Origin: Aquificaceae bacterium
Lineage (GTDB): Bacteria; Aquificota; Aquificia; Aquificales; Aquificaceae
NCBI GenBank assembly: GCA_026981975.1
Contig: JALSHV010000008.1
Location: 1-64,000 of the forward strand
DNA: 64,000 nt
Reading direction: 5' to 3'
Shown here: piece after piece, positions 6,680 through 11,390 of the stretch
How positions within the stretch are numbered: position 1 is the first letter of the stretch
Layout: the number at the start of each line of letters is the position of its first letter
The notes under the pieces: model-generated
Seen by the model: only the letters and a program-made list of their open reading frames with translations
Databases searched by the model: none
Told to the model about the DNA's origin: nothing
Position numbers and translations under genes: made by a program

Positions 6680-8989
6680 ATGCGCATTCCTTTTTCATGG
6701 TTAAAAGAGTTTGTTTGTATTGAAGGGTTAAAAGCCCGGGATATTGCAGAAGTTTTATCTCTTAAAAGTGTTGAGGCAACAGTAGAGGTTTTTTCTAAGA
6801 ATATAAAAGGTGTAGTTTACGGAAGAATACATAAAGTAGAAAAACATTTGGAACTATCAATCTTGAAAATAAGTATAGGAAAGGAAAAAGTTATTACCGT
6901 TGTAACCTCCGATACTTCCCTTAACGTGGGAGAGGGAGTTTTAGTAGCCCTCCCGGGAGCTTCTATTGAAGGAAAACCTGTTTTTGAAAAAAAAATAGGA
7001 GGTATTGTTTCGCAGGGTTTGATCATGACAGCTTCTGATCTAGGTTTGGAAGATGCAGAAGAAGGAGTTCTCAAGTTGGAAGGGGATTTTGAACCGGGAA
7101 CGGAAGCGGAGAAGTTACTGGGCTTTGGAGAAGAAATCCTTGAACTTGATATAACACCAAATAGAGGGGATCTTCTCTCCGTAAGAGGATTAGCAAGAGA
7201 GCTGAGTGCATTACTAAATCTTGAGAAAAAAGAAAAAAAATACCCAAATTTCAAAGCCACGGGAGAAATAGAAATCAGCTTAGAAGATAAAGACTGTAAA
7301 AGATATAGGGGAGCTGTTATAAAAGGTATAAAACCCCGAAGATCTCCCTTGTGGCTCAGAGTTCGCTTGTGGCAGAGCGGATTCAAAACTATAAACAGTA
7401 TCGTAGATGTTACAAATTACATCTTAATTGAAGAAGGACAACCGCTACACGCTTTTGATTTAGATACTCTTTGTGGGGGAATAACAGTTCGTAAAGCTCG
7501 TAAAGGAGAAGTAATAAGAACTCTTGAAGGAGAAGAAAAGGAGCTTAATGAAGAAATCCTTATAATAGCAGATGAGGAAAAACCCATAGCAATTGCAGGT
7601 ATAGTAGGAGGACTGCATACAGCTGTAAACAAAAATACACGTAATATTCTTCTGGAAGCAGCTTATTTTGAACCTTTAAGAATCAGGAAAGGTTCAAGAA
7701 TCTTAAGTATCAAGACAGAAAGTAGTTACCGATTTGAAAGAAATACAGACATAGAAAGATTGAAAGAAGCTCAGAACAAAGCCATTCAATTGTTACTGGA
7801 AACCTCAGGAGGTAAACTTGAGTCTTTAAAGGACGTATATCCAGAACCCTTTAAGCCTAAGACTGTTTTTCTGTCGGCAGGGAAGTTCTCCAGATATACT
7901 GGAGAAGATTACAACGAAGAAGAAATTGAAAATATATTATCGCGCCTTGAAATTCCTTATGAACTGAAAAAGTGCGGGGTAGAAGTTTTCATTCCTTCTC
8001 ACAGAAGTTTTGATATGAGCAGAGATGTAGATTTGATAGAAGAAATAGTAAGAGTAAAAGGCTACGATAGTTTTCCTTCTATAGCTCTTAACCTTCCTGT
8101 AAAAACTACCTTTTGGAGAGATGAATTGCTTGAAATAAAGAAATTTCTAAGGGATCAGGGATTTCAGGAAATAATTACCATCTCCTATGAAGATGCAGAG
8201 CTTTACACTAAATTCAATCTTGACTTTCCCAGTGTAGAAATCCTTAACCCCCTTCAACCTTCTCAAAGATTTATGAGAGCTTCTCTCATTCCATCACTTA
8301 TCAAAACAGCTCTTTACAATAATAACCATTACAATTACGATATTGCCATCTTTGAAGTAGGCCATGTCTTCAATAAAGAAAAGGAAGAAGTTAGGGCTGG
8401 TATCCTGTTACAGGGATTTAAGCCGGGATTTCCCTTACAGGAGTGGAATCTTTATGATCTATCTCGTGTTATTCAGGGAATAGCGGATTTGTATCGTAAG
8501 CGATTTCACTTAGAATCAATAAATATTGAATTCCTTCACCCTCACGCTCAGGCAGCTGTATTTTTGGGAAAGGAAAGTATAGGCTTTATAGGTAAACTGC
8601 ACCCTACTCTTAAAGAAGATCTTAACTTAAGGAAAGATGTGCTTTTAGCGGAAATAAAACTTGATCCACTATTTGTGGAAGAAAAACTCTTTTACAAAAC
8701 TTTTTCCCGTTTTCCACCCGTTATAAGAGATTTAGCTCTCCTTATGGACAAAAACGTTTCAGTGAGTAAATTATTAAATGAGATCCAGTTTCAGCTCGGA
8801 GACAAGGTGGAGAAGGTAATGGTATTTGACCTTTACACAGGCTCTAAGGTAGGGGAAGGCAAGAAAAGTGTAGGGGTAAGAATAATTCTCAGAAGTAAAA
8901 AAGGTAGTCTGTCCGCAGAGGAAGTTAATACTCTTATGGAAACACTAATACACAGGTTGAAAAATCTTCTGGGCGTGGAGATAAGATAA
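6680..8989 (+). CDS. pheT: Phenylalanyl-tRNA synthetase beta subunit
   Basis: 769-residue beta chain of the heterotetrameric PheRS. Domains in order: N-terminal segment MRIPFSWLKEFV, EMAP/OB-type tRNA-binding domain (about 40-150), B3/B4 editing domain (about 205-375, with QPLHAFDLDTL), B5 DNA-binding-like fold (about 395-470), the catalytic-like core (about 475-670) and a C-terminal ferredoxin-fold anticodon-binding domain (SRFPPVIRDLALLMD... to the end). The alpha-subunit gene pheS is not adjacent, so the two genes are unlinked here. The stop is directly followed by the 6S RNA region. Confidence 0.96.
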   Translation: MRIPFSWLKEFVCIEGLKARDIAEVLSLKSVEATVEVFSKNIKGVVYGRIHKVEKHLELSILKISIGKEKVITVVTSDTSLNVGEGVLVALPGASIEGKPVFEKKIGGIVSQGLIMTASDLGLEDAEEGVLKLEGDFEPGTEAEKLLGFGEEILELDITPNRGDLLSVRGLARELSALLNLEKKEKKYPNFKATGEIEISLEDKDCKRYRGAVIKGIKPRRSPLWLRVRLWQSGFKTINSIVDVTNYILIEEGQPLHAFDLDTLCGGITVRKARKGEVIRTLEGEEKELNEEILIIADEEKPIAIAGIVGGLHTAVNKNTRNILLEAAYFEPLRIRKGSRILSIKTESSYRFERNTDIERLKEAQNKAIQLLLETSGGKLESLKDVYPEPFKPKTVFLSAGKFSRYTGEDYNEEEIENILSRLEIPYELKKCGVEVFIPSHRSFDMSRDVDLIEEIVRVKGYDSFPSIALNLPVKTTFWRDELLEIKKFLRDQGFQEIITISYEDAELYTKFNLDFPSVEILNPLQPSQRFMRASLIPSLIKTALYNNNHYNYDIAIFEVGHVFNKEKEEVRAGILLQGFKPGFPLQEWNLYDLSRVIQGIADLYRKRFHLESINIEFLHPHAQAAVFLGKESIGFIGKLHPTLKEDLNLRKDVLLAEIKLDPLFVEEKLFYKTFSRFPPVIRDLALLMDKNVSVSKLLNEIQFQLGDKVEKVMVFDLYTGSKVGEGKKSVGVRIILRSKKGSLSAEEVNTLMETLIHRLKNLLGVEIR

Positions 8990-8992
8990 AAT

Positions 8993-9155
8993 CTCCTGCC
9001 CTGTTCGTGGCGCAGGGATAGCAATTGGGGCCTACAAGTGGGCTTAAAGGGAACCCGGCTTCGGGGAAGTCCCGTGAGGACTCTCCGAGAGGGTACCCAC
9101 CTTAAATTTAAGGGGCCCACAGGTGTCCCTGACGATCCACGGCAGGGCGGGTTTT
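8993..9155 (+). ncRNA. ssrS: 6S RNA (RNA polymerase regulator)
   Basis: The GC-rich stretch between pheT and the 5-formyl-THF cyclo-ligase gene lacks a plausible reading frame and folds as a long rod. The ends CCTGCCCTG (8995 on) and GGCAGGGCGG (9141-9150) pair, followed by CAGGGA (9013-9018) with TCCCTG (9126-9131). Next come GTGGGCTTAAAGG (9038-9050) with CCTTAAAT...GGGCCCAC (9100-9120), then an apical hairpin. A closing stem, internal bulge and capped apical stem fit 6S RNA, which mimics an open promoter and binds sigma-70 RNA polymerase. In many bacteria 6S RNA sits just upstream of this same cyclo-ligase gene, which supports the call. Exact ends are estimates. Confidence 0.8.
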
Positions 9156-9169
9156 AAACATCTCCTTGC

Positions 9170-9198
9170 CTTCCCCTCCTGTTTTCAGGAGGTGGAAG
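9170..9198 (+). promoter_or_regulatory. Hairpin holding the ribosome binding site of the cyclo-ligase gene
   Basis: CTTCCCCTCCTG (9170-9181), a TTTT loop and CAGGAGGTGGAAG (9186-9198) form a 12-bp stem with one bulged T at 9193. The 3' arm contains AGGAGGT, the Shine-Dalgarno of the gene starting at GTG 9203, so the site would be masked when folded. No T-run follows, so it is not a standard intrinsic terminator. Confidence 0.7.
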
Positions 9199-9202
9199 TT
9201 AG

Positions 9203-9757
9203 GTGCTAAAAAAGGAAGTCATACGAAGAAGGTTCTTAAAAGAGAGATTATTACATCGCGGTAAAGTAAAAGAAGAAAAAGATAAAAAAATACTGAAAAA
9301 TCTCCTGAAACTTCCCGAACTCAACAAGGCAAGGAATATTCTCTTTTACTGTGCAGTGAAGGGAGAACCTGATTTAACACCATTGATGAAGTTAATGTTA
9401 AAAAAGAACGGATATGTAATACTACCAAAGGTAGAAGGTTATAACTTAAAGCTCTATACTGTAAGGGATTTATCTACTCTGAAAAAGGGAAAGTTTGGAA
9501 TACCTGAACCGATTGAAGGGGAAATTGTAGATCCAGAAAGCACCGATCTTGCCTTTATACCAGGGCTTATTTTTGATAGGGAAGGATACAGAATAGGATT
9601 TGGAAAAGGTTATTACGACAGATTATTAGAAAATTTAAAAGCTACAAGTATAGGAGTTGCTTACTCTTTTCAGGTTCTTCCTAAGATTCCCAAAGATCCG
9701 TGGGACAAGCCGGTTCACCTCGTAGTAACGGAAGAGGAAATAATAAGGAGGTTTTAA
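9203..9757 (+). CDS. ygfA: 5-formyltetrahydrofolate cyclo-ligase
   Basis: 184-residue enzyme that converts 5-formyl-THF to 5,10-methenyl-THF using ATP. Key features are the basic N-terminus with RRRFLKERL, NILFYCAVKGEPD, the substrate loop FIPGLIFDREGYRIGFG and the family signature RIGFGKGYYDRLL, followed by IGVAYSFQ. The GTG start at 9203 is supported by AGGAGGT nine bases upstream. It lies immediately behind the 6S RNA, the usual arrangement in many bacteria, and 1 base before rny, so ygfA, rny and perhaps 6S RNA are probably co-transcribed. Confidence 0.94.
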   Translation: MLKKEVIRRRFLKERLLHRGKVKEEKDKKILKNLLKLPELNKARNILFYCAVKGEPDLTPLMKLMLKKNGYVILPKVEGYNLKLYTVRDLSTLKKGKFGIPEPIEGEIVDPESTDLAFIPGLIFDREGYRIGFGKGYYDRLLENLKATSIGVAYSFQVLPKIPKDPWDKPVHLVVTEEEIIRRF

Positions 9758-9758
9758 A

Positions 9759-11390
9759 ATGGAACTTACGATTTTGATAACTCTAATTGTTGTATTAATA
9801 CTGATAGGTTTCTTGGTTTTTTTTAAAAGAAAGAAAGTAACAGAAATTGAAACTGTTGATATTGAAAGGGAAATAAGAAAGGCAGAAGAAAAAGCCTTTC
9901 ACCTTGTAAAAGAAGCACAGGAAAAAGCGGAAAGGCTTTTAAAAGAAGCTGATGAAAAAGCTCAAAGTATAATCTCCGAAGCGCAAAAGGAAGCAGAACG
10001 TCTAAGGAAAGAACTTGAGGAAAAAAGGAAAGAGGTAAAAGAGTGGGAAGAGAACATACAAACTAAGGAAAAGCAGTTAGAAAGGAAGTGGGAACTACTT
10101 GAACGCAGGGAAGAAGATTTGTATAAGAGAGAAAGAGAGATTAGGGAAGCAGAAAAGCAGTTAGAGGAAAAAAAGAAAGAACTTATACAACGTGAACAGA
10201 TTATTTCCTCAGAAGAAGAGGAAATCAAGAAATTGAAACAGCAAGAAATTCTTGAACTTCAAAGGATAGCCTCTTTAACTTTTGAAGAAGCAAGGCAGGA
10301 GCTTATGAAAAGAGTAGAAGAAGAAAGCAAATTAGAAGCCATAAAGATTATGAAAAAAATAGAAGAGGAAGCAAGGGAAAAAGCGGAATTTGAAGCCAAA
10401 AGGATACTGACAACAGCTCTTCAGAGAATATCCCCTCAAATTGCTATAAACTACACAACCACTTCTGTAGAATTACCAAGTAATGAATTTAAGGGAAGAA
10501 TTATAGGAAGGGAAGGCAGAAATATAAGAACCTTTGAACTTCTTACGGGAGTGGATTTGATCATAGATGATACACCCGATATAGTTACTATATCTTCTTT
10601 TGATCCCATGAGAAGGGAAATAGCACGGGAAGCTCTTGAAAGACTTATACAAGACGGACGAATTCATCCCGCTCGCATAGAGGAGATAGTAGATGAAGTT
10701 AAAAAAGAAATGGATGAACGAATAAGGAAAATGGGAGAGGAAACCGTCTTTGAATTAGGACTTCACGATATTAATCCGGGACTCTACTACTACATAGGAA
10801 AACTGTATTTCCGCACAAGTTATTCTCAAAACGTCTTATTACACTCAAAAGAAGTAGCCCACCTTGCAGGGCTTCTTGCGGAAGAGTTGAACCTTGATGC
10901 CAAATTAGCACGTAGAGCCGGGCTTCTCCACGACATAGGGAAAGCTGTTTCTCACGAGCTTGCAGGATCTCACACAGATGTAGGAGTAGAACTGTGCAAA
11001 AAATACGGTGAACCAGAAGCGGTTATAAACGCCATAAAAGCACATCACGAAGAAGAAGCTGTCAGATATCCGGAAGTTGCTCTTGTTTGCGCTGCGGACG
11101 CTCTTTCCGCTGCAAGGCCGGGTGCTAGAAGGGAAACTCTTGAAGCCTATCTCAAAAGACTTGAAAAACTTGAAGAAATAGTAAAATCCTTTAAAGGAGT
11201 AGCAAATGCCTATGCGGTTCAAGCAGGTAGAGAAATAAGGGTAATAGTAAATCCGGAGGAGATAACCGATGAAGAAACCTTTGTCTTATCAAGAGATATA
11301 GCAAAGAAGATAGAGGAAGAAATGGACTACCCGGGACAGATAAAGGTAGTGGTAATAAGGGAATTGCGCCATGTAGAATATGCTAAATAA
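9759..11390 (+). CDS. rny: Ribonuclease Y
   Basis: Membrane-anchored endoribonuclease that starts mRNA decay, 543 residues. One N-terminal membrane helix (about 3-23) is followed by a long Lys/Glu-rich coiled coil (about 30-200), a KH RNA-binding domain (about 235-300, with GRIIGREGRNIRTFE) and an HD-type phosphohydrolase domain carrying the metal pair His391-Asp392 in GLLHDIGKA. All RNase Y domains are present at normal length. It is followed after a tRNA-Leu by a YmdB-type phosphoesterase gene, the common rny-ymdB pairing. The presence of an RNase G/E gene at 47.5 kb means this organism has both classes of decay nuclease. Confidence 0.97.
   Translation: MELTILITLIVVLILIGFLVFFKRKKVTEIETVDIEREIRKAEEKAFHLVKEAQEKAERLLKEADEKAQSIISEAQKEAERLRKELEEKRKEVKEWEENIQTKEKQLERKWELLERREEDLYKREREIREAEKQLEEKKKELIQREQIISSEEEEIKKLKQQEILELQRIASLTFEEARQELMKRVEEESKLEAIKIMKKIEEEAREKAEFEAKRILTTALQRISPQIAINYTTTSVELPSNEFKGRIIGREGRNIRTFELLTGVDLIIDDTPDIVTISSFDPMRREIAREALERLIQDGRIHPARIEEIVDEVKKEMDERIRKMGEETVFELGLHDINPGLYYYIGKLYFRTSYSQNVLLHSKEVAHLAGLLAEELNLDAKLARRAGLLHDIGKAVSHELAGSHTDVGVELCKKYGEPEAVINAIKAHHEEEAVRYPEVALVCAADALSAARPGARRETLEAYLKRLEKLEEIVKSFKGVANAYAVQAGREIRVIVNPEEITDEETFVLSRDIAKKIEEEMDYPGQIKVVVIRELRHVEYAK

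Follow-up and report, generated by a model that had tools for sequence, protein, structure and literature searches.

6S RNA and ygfA, the gene of 5-formyltetrahydrofolate cyclo-ligase, are neighbors in many bacteria, and the Aquificaceae locus described here raises the question of why a hairpin holding the ribosome site of ygfA stands between the two. In the window, by which we mean the whole stretch of 64,000 nucleotides that was analyzed, pheT, 6S RNA, ygfA, and rny are packed in tight succession (Table 1). The initial annotation had placed rny in the ygfA operon, and the gene adjoining ygfA downstream does show the Pfam domains of RNase Y. The 6S RNA match starts at the very next base after the pheT stop codon (window positions 8986 to 8990), so that, if this start is near the real 5' end, 6S RNA is either transcribed from a promoter within pheT or cut from the pheT transcript.

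Table 1. Features of the pheT-6S-ygfA-rny locus, in window coordinates
Feature	Position	Strand	Basis
pheT (phenylalanyl-tRNA synthetase beta)	6680..8989	+	ORF; Pfam B3_4, FDX-ACB
6S RNA	8990..9157	+	Rfam RF00013, 63.5 bits, full-length model
TTGC, conserved unpaired head of the TTGCCTYC tract entering the 5' arm	9166..9169	+	f1 comparison; centroid fold
Hairpin 5' arm (anti-SD arm), CTTCC+CCTCCTG	9170..9181	+	Sequence, centroid fold
TTTT loop; sequence and length vary among relatives	9182..9185	+	Sequence, comparison
Hairpin 3' arm, CAGGAGG(T)GGAAG; T9193 bulged	9186..9198	+	Sequence, centroid fold
Shine-Dalgarno (SD) sequence of ygfA, AGGAGGTG, masked within the 3' arm	9187..9194	+	Sequence; SD-freeing cost
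ygfA (fau/fthC), 5-formyltetrahydrofolate cyclo-ligase, GTG start at 9203-9205	9203..9757	+	ORF; Pfam PF01812, 1e-41
rny (RNase Y), next operon gene	9759..11390	+	ORF; Pfam RNase_Y_N, KH_1, HD

As first annotated, the hairpin lies between 6S RNA and the GTG start codon, has a TTTT loop, and carries the Shine-Dalgarno (SD) sequence, a perfect 8-nucleotide AGGAGGTG, in its 3' arm. The 12 bp attributed to the stem were counted correctly but are not continuous, the hairpin (positions 9170 to 9198) being built of 5 plus 7 bp with one bulged U (U9193); this position is T or C in those relatives of family f1 that have the full hairpin. The centroid fold of 81 nucleotides is exactly the ygfA leader hairpin (-20.5 kcal/mol at 37 °C). 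The minimum-energy fold (-24.3 kcal/mol) retains the inner stem with the outer bases re-paired, and only modestly beats shuffled sequences (z score of -1.88; 8 of 200 as good). In the centroid fold of 256 nucleotides, 6S RNA and the hairpin stand side by side as separate units. The window thus has an SD paired in a stable local structure beside the start codon, as a cis-acting SD-sequestering element should.

To express how deeply the SD is buried, we used the SD-freeing cost, that is, the free energy needed to keep the SD unpaired, scored for ORFs with an SD of at least 4 nucleotides. The cost for ygfA is 15.3 kcal/mol at 37 °C and 8.7 kcal/mol at 75 °C, the highest among 49 SD-bearing ORFs of the window (at 75 °C the runner-up costs 2.8 and the median ORF 0.8 kcal/mol), so that the ribosome site is indeed buried, as had been annotated; a first, window-only version of the scoring likewise ranked ygfA first of 46. 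It also ranks first of 96 in G019 (seven stretches) and first of 91 in G056 (six stretches). Median costs for ygfA at 37 °C are 13.3 kcal/mol in f1 (n = 58), 14.2 kcal/mol in f3 (n = 36), and 11.1 kcal/mol in f5 (n = 18), against medians of 2.3 to 2.7 for the background SD-bearing ORFs of four genomes. Start codons as assigned for ygfA are commonly weak, with TTG in 24 of 58 f1 and 25 of 36 f3 genomes scored. In G019, the second most masked SD (12.0 kcal/mol at 37 °C) belongs to a 408-amino-acid ORF with a GTG start (L137:17421, plus strand). In the f5 genome G122 (seven stretches), ygfA is not among the seven costs listed; its SD, AAGGGG, poorly fits the standard SD list, and its modeled SD exposure is 6e-10 at 37 °C. 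The top two costs there belong to ORFs that share a leader (L149:9571, plus strand; L153:16119, minus strand), in which the repeated inverted repeat GGTGGACACC..GGTGTCCACC masks a 9-nucleotide SD; these are probably a mobile element guarding against read-through.

Conservation was followed through 136 genomes of the phylum, 64 of them in f1, the window's family, which we take as Aquificaceae. One f1 genome, G019, is taken as Aquifex aeolicus VF5 because its 6S match (C1:1219725-1219886) falls inside the 6S interval 1219679-1219903 given in PMC4227106, a survey of Aquificales noncoding RNAs with A. aeolicus dRNA-seq that covers this locus. When upstream regions are chosen by a ygfA match (n = 58), 56 keep the hairpin, 51 in full and 5 in a short form, and 2 have none. 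Among the 59 upstream regions read, 52 have the full hairpin, 5 (genus g10) the short TTGCCTCC..GGAGGTAT, and 2 (G022 and G028) none; the additional region is that of G005, which was taken in for its pattern, as were G110 and G097 in f3, without an adjoining ygfA match. The pattern TTGCCTTC N{1,3} CTCC N{2,14} GGAGGNGGA occurs exactly once each in 52 of the 136 genomes, all of f1, and its reversed control occurs in none of the 136. It precedes a ygfA match in 51 of the 52, the copy of G005 lying behind 6S RNA at a contig end that cuts off ygfA. A stricter f1 motif found 36 stretches in a public collection of 84,980 genomes, 35 of them titled Aquificota or a member of that phylum. The 36th, contig RFFP01000021.1 (L157), is titled Acidobacteria and agrees in length (42,841) and in the position of the motif with contig C31 of the f1 genome G072; its title is likely wrong.

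The f1 stem sequence hardly varies, and TTGCCTYC is present in 57 of the 59 upstream regions (56 of 58 if chosen by ygfA), its TTGC unpaired in the centroid fold before the 5' arm. No counts were taken from the alignments A2 (34 of the 59 f1 rows, with g10 poorly aligned) and A3. Two explanations of the invariant head were considered. Pairing of UUGCC with the 3' strand of 6S RNA was set aside as not required, since 9 of 52 sequences retain UUGCC opposite a strand that is without GGC(A/G)(A/G)G; a G.U-rich pairing could still form. A sigma-54 promoter made of TTGC and an upstream GG was rejected, the spacing varying among relatives (by eye). At the 6S-hairpin junctions of f1, 5 of the 51 scored fold so well that at most 5 of 100 shuffles equal them (a single shuffle for the window), and the junctions show a mild general tendency in this direction.

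In f3, which we take to be Hydrogenothermaceae, the hairpin is present in all 36 upstream regions chosen by ygfA match and in 38 of 38 if G097 and G110 are counted. The stem differs from that of f1, being typically (U)G(A/G)CCUUCC..GGGAGGUC(A), and the SD likewise lies in the 3' arm. In the f3 alignment A1 (33 rows out of 38, after removal of four duplicates and of G059, which is distinct), 95.4% of cells pair, compared with 90.6% in shuffles; 18 cells are changed on both sides, compared with 6.7; and the covariation score is 0.169, compared with 0.103. None of 500 shuffles reached any of these three values. Every structure slid along the alignment has a lower score and pairs at most 61.8% of cells, a control biased toward the observed structure because that structure was read from the same sequences. 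By pair, 2 of 11 change on both sides, 4 change on one side, and 5 never vary; 347 of 500 shuffles have at least as many two-sided pairs, the structure slid by +1 has 4 of them, and the 10 pair types are reached by 63 of 500 shuffles. Between families, both arms of the hairpin differ together, and the stems of f1, f3, and f5 are distinct. We thus find the stem kept with compensating changes, one of the two outcomes on which the initial annotation had made its reading depend, though shuffles yield as many two-sided pairs. As the f1 stem is nearly invariant and 5 of the 11 f3 pairs are fixed, the case rests partly on the difference between families.

A scan with an f3 pattern gave 30 matches in 29 genomes, of which 24 fall at a junction with ygfA or 6S RNA; as the reversed control itself gave 7, the 6 that lie elsewhere appear to be chance matches. 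As a separate observation, the f3 trailer leading up to the SD hairpin, which reads ACCGCG and in genus g16 GCCC, complements the end of the 6S 3' strand (CGCGGGG, or GGGGC), for example at L102, L087, L054, L104, L044, and L050. This pairing would form a second hairpin competing with the closing stem of 6S RNA. At most 5 of 100 shuffles are as good in g19, g20, and some members of g14 and g22, which is not so in many others.

That the sequence is an inverted repeat could also mean that it acts as DNA, as the dyad of an operator, or as an intrinsic terminator, rather than as an RNA element. We consider this extremely unlikely. Pairing of the arms is maintained across loops of different lengths, and in f3 the U.G wobble opposite the SD, where all 33 rows have U and C would be the better partner, breaks the symmetry expected of a DNA site. 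An intrinsic terminator needs a GC-rich stem and a T-run; there is no T-run behind this stem, and the hairpin is not listed by the terminator scan.

Whether the hairpin belongs to 6S RNA or to ygfA can be asked in f5, presumably Desulfurobacteriaceae. No f5 genome has an Rfam match to 6S RNA, with seven of them tested up to an E value of 1. The hairpin nevertheless covers the ygfA SD, mostly as AUCUUCCCUUAUGCCCC..GGGGU, and in places its arms have changed and still match (CAACUCC..GGAGUUG in G115 and CCCUUU..AAAGGG in G129). Strong masking, of at least 7.5 kcal/mol at 37 °C, was found in 16 of 20 upstream regions, including that of G132, which is without an exact CUUCC; G118 is weakly masked (2.7 kcal/mol), G130 and G131 are without the hairpin (the two genomes of genus g29), and in G117 the ygfA start was not reached. 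G122 carries the hairpin within a pheS-pheT-zapA-ygfA-rny gene order, where zapA ends 31 nucleotides before ygfA (zapA was assigned by Pfam ZapA at 4.8e-13, and pheS, pheT, and rny by eye). A short in-frame upstream ORF starting ATGCCCC was considered in f5 and rejected, as it occurs in some members only, its ATG being absent in g24 and most of g30 (by eye).

The hairpins of f5 without a detected 6S RNA, and zapA abutting ygfA in G122, indicate that the hairpin goes with ygfA and not with 6S RNA. Because the Rfam search also misses 6S RNA in some f1 genomes, the direct evidence is the zapA-ygfA gap of G122 only. The f5 genomes may have 6S RNA elsewhere, and PMC4227106 mentions divergent candidates for two Desulfurobacteriaceae. 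An element of 6S maturation would be present only where 6S RNA is the upstream neighbor, and this is not the distribution found, which speaks against the initial suggestion of a processing site that releases 6S RNA.

In a broader form of that idea, the hairpin would place an endonuclease, such as RNase Y, to split 6S or zapA RNA from the ygfA-rny mRNA and would shield the new 5' end, the masking of the SD being secondary or relieved by a cut in the 5' arm. The hairpin does stand right behind the 3' end of 6S RNA, the sequence of its 5' arm is conserved, and rny lies downstream in all three operons read (by Pfam in the window and by eye in G056 and G122). However, the element is present where no 6S RNA is detected, and cleavage confined to the linker would not unmask the SD. 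We regard such a guide as quite unlikely. Translation of ygfA could still depend on RNase cleavage, as was also proposed at the outset.

The genomes that are without the hairpin bear on a second alternative. None of the seven f2 genomes has it, and their SDs are weak (median cost of 3.0 kcal/mol); neither of the two f4 genomes has it, the one that was scored giving 0.5 kcal/mol. In G028, an f1 exception, a pheT-like frame (by eye) runs directly into ygfA without 6S RNA, and the SD costs 1.9 kcal/mol. The joint absence of 6S RNA and hairpin in this genome favors passive insulation, in which the hairpin would only damp ygfA translation on abundant RNA reading through from upstream (the pheT operon or 6S); the enzyme would be made in a constant small amount, and the stem would have no regulated opening. 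So does the junction in the window, as no terminator and, by a consensus scan, no sigma-70-like promoter was flagged on the plus strand at positions 9000 to 9210, including the interval between 6S RNA and ygfA. Masking of an SD against read-through is known for transposases, and the two repeated ORFs of G122, probably those of a mobile element, have masked SDs as well. On the other hand, a weak SD would suffice for insulation, yet the 8-nucleotide SD and its complement are both kept; ygfA genes of f5 carry the hairpin without a detected 6S RNA; and the CUUCC tract is kept in three families despite its different placement in the folds, the 5' arm being conserved as well. Passive insulation is the chief rival to regulated control, and we judge it unlikely.

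The initial annotation had also proposed a thermosensor, and an SD within a short hairpin is indeed the standard layout of RNA thermometers, in which heating would melt the stem and turn ygfA on. Growth optima are about 85 to 95 °C for A. aeolicus and 65 to 75 °C for Hydrogenothermaceae. Between 85 and 100 °C the modeled exposure of the SD, for which ViennaRNA energies are extrapolated to high temperature and cellular salts, proteins, and helicases are ignored, rises from 5e-4 to 0.07 in the window and from 1.5e-4 to 0.02 in G019; in G056 it goes from 1e-6 at 70 °C to 0.03 at 100 °C. A few relatives are modeled as looser. At 75 and 80 °C, respectively, exposure is 0.06 and 0.18 in G104 and 0.03 and 0.12 in G115 and G116, the last two being half free near 91 °C, and at 80 °C it is about 0.05 in G058 and G103. 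Four f1 rows (G009, G011, G012, and G018) were apparently scored at a later, in-gene GGAGG, and the rescoring of freeing costs by family used another choice of SD than this model. With these few exceptions, modeled exposure is low at the assumed growth temperatures in most genomes, which argues against a simple thermosensor. A thermometer working within the growth range accordingly finds no support in most genomes modeled, the looser relatives being partly exposed at 75 to 80 °C, and as an account of the hairpin it appears, on these modeled values, very unlikely.

If the stem does not simply melt, a factor might open it, possibly by way of the CUUCC tract of the 5' region. Within 60 nucleotides upstream of ygfA, CUUCC is found in 50 of 59 f1, 36 of 38 f3, 16 of 20 f5, 2 of 7 f2, and 0 of 2 f4 genomes, compared with 24 of 396 background ORFs in four genomes (7/59, 8/122, 3/108, and 6/107), ygfA itself included. 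Its partner is GGAAG in f1 and, through a U.G wobble, GGAGG in f3, so that part of its conservation in these two families is imposed by pairing; the f5 tract is placed outside the core stem, with other pairing partners in some folds. That the tract is kept in three families though placed differently in each fold suggests, from sequence comparison, that it is read by a sequence-reading factor. More specifically, CUUCC could be the recognition site of a dedicated trans-acting factor, either a folate enzyme that controls its own message or a nuclease that reads sequence, a proposal that we make only tentatively, as one with a modest chance of being right. Were it true, three Aquificota families would share a new regulatory RNA specific to this gene, and the recycling of 5-formyl-folate would be tied to a signal in thermophiles. 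The apical GGGGAAG of 6S RNA was considered as a trans partner of CUUCCCC and dropped, being present in the window and not kept in other genera (by eye).

Comparison across three Aquificota families shows that a perfect SD, predicted to be masked, is kept despite differing stem sequence. We therefore favor the reading, probable though by no means secure, that the hairpin is a cis-acting control element that keeps translation of ygfA off by default and is opened by some factor. The ygfA cistron on a pheT-6S (or zapA)-ygfA-rny transcript would be translated poorly by default, as 30S subunits would be unable to reach the SD. A factor reading the conserved CUUCC-containing 5' region would open the stem, upon which translation of ygfA would rise. 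Candidates for this opener are a protein, for example the folate enzyme in an autoregulatory role, and an endonuclease that removes the 5' arm. A control hairpin tied to ygfA, which persists when the neighbor is zapA, separates the regulation of the folate enzyme from 6S biogenesis. A compact translational switch that is predicted to stay folded near 85 °C also offers a probe of RNA control where simple melting is unlikely.

The hairpin matches no Rfam family and belongs to a known kind, the SD-masking leaders. In Rfam 15, 6S RNA was the only match between positions 8900 and 9350 at E values up to 5, and no riboswitch or leader family was matched; a search of six relatives likewise gave no leader, three of them matching 6S RNA and a single sub-threshold match, to a microRNA family, being due to chance. 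The literature searched yielded no description of a ygfA leader hairpin, and a remark on it may be contained in the papers on Aquifex RNomics (2005) or A. aeolicus 6S RNA (Biochimie 2015). Term searches of the accessible portions of two papers that cover Aquificota, PMC4227106 (main text) and PMC8632094, did not find the hairpin; the main text of the former, to the extent accessible, contains neither "formyltetrahydrofolate" nor "ygfA" and no passage on it.

PMC9130861 reports 6S RNA beside ygfA for several proteobacteria and some Firmicutes, and a Shewanella survey lists the 5' region of the 5-formyltetrahydrofolate cyclo-ligase gene as 6S RNA. Unlike the locus described here, the ssrS-fau junction of E. 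coli K-12 shows no comparable hairpin (z score of -0.01). The fthC motif of Streptococcus is also a structured leader before a 5-formyltetrahydrofolate cyclo-ligase gene. According to PMC11109978, it has been described only from Streptococcus and consists of three hairpins, the third of them a terminator-like stem (P3), with a putative upstream ORF. As far as can be judged from that description, the Aquificota leader is a different element: it has one hairpin, which masks the SD, and neither a terminator nor a consistent upstream ORF. Further parallels lie among leaders of other genes. As here, the ROSE and fourU thermometers have their SD in a hairpin that immediately precedes the start codon; the Aquificota hairpin differs in that, in most genomes modeled, it is predicted not to melt near the growth range, and to our knowledge of these motifs neither a fourU nor a ROSE sequence is visible in it. 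In the transposase genes of IS10, IS50, and IS200, hairpins that sequester the ribosome-binding site block ribosomes on longer transcripts. There a mobile gene is guarded from outside transcription, whereas here the hairpin stands before a housekeeping gene inside an operon.
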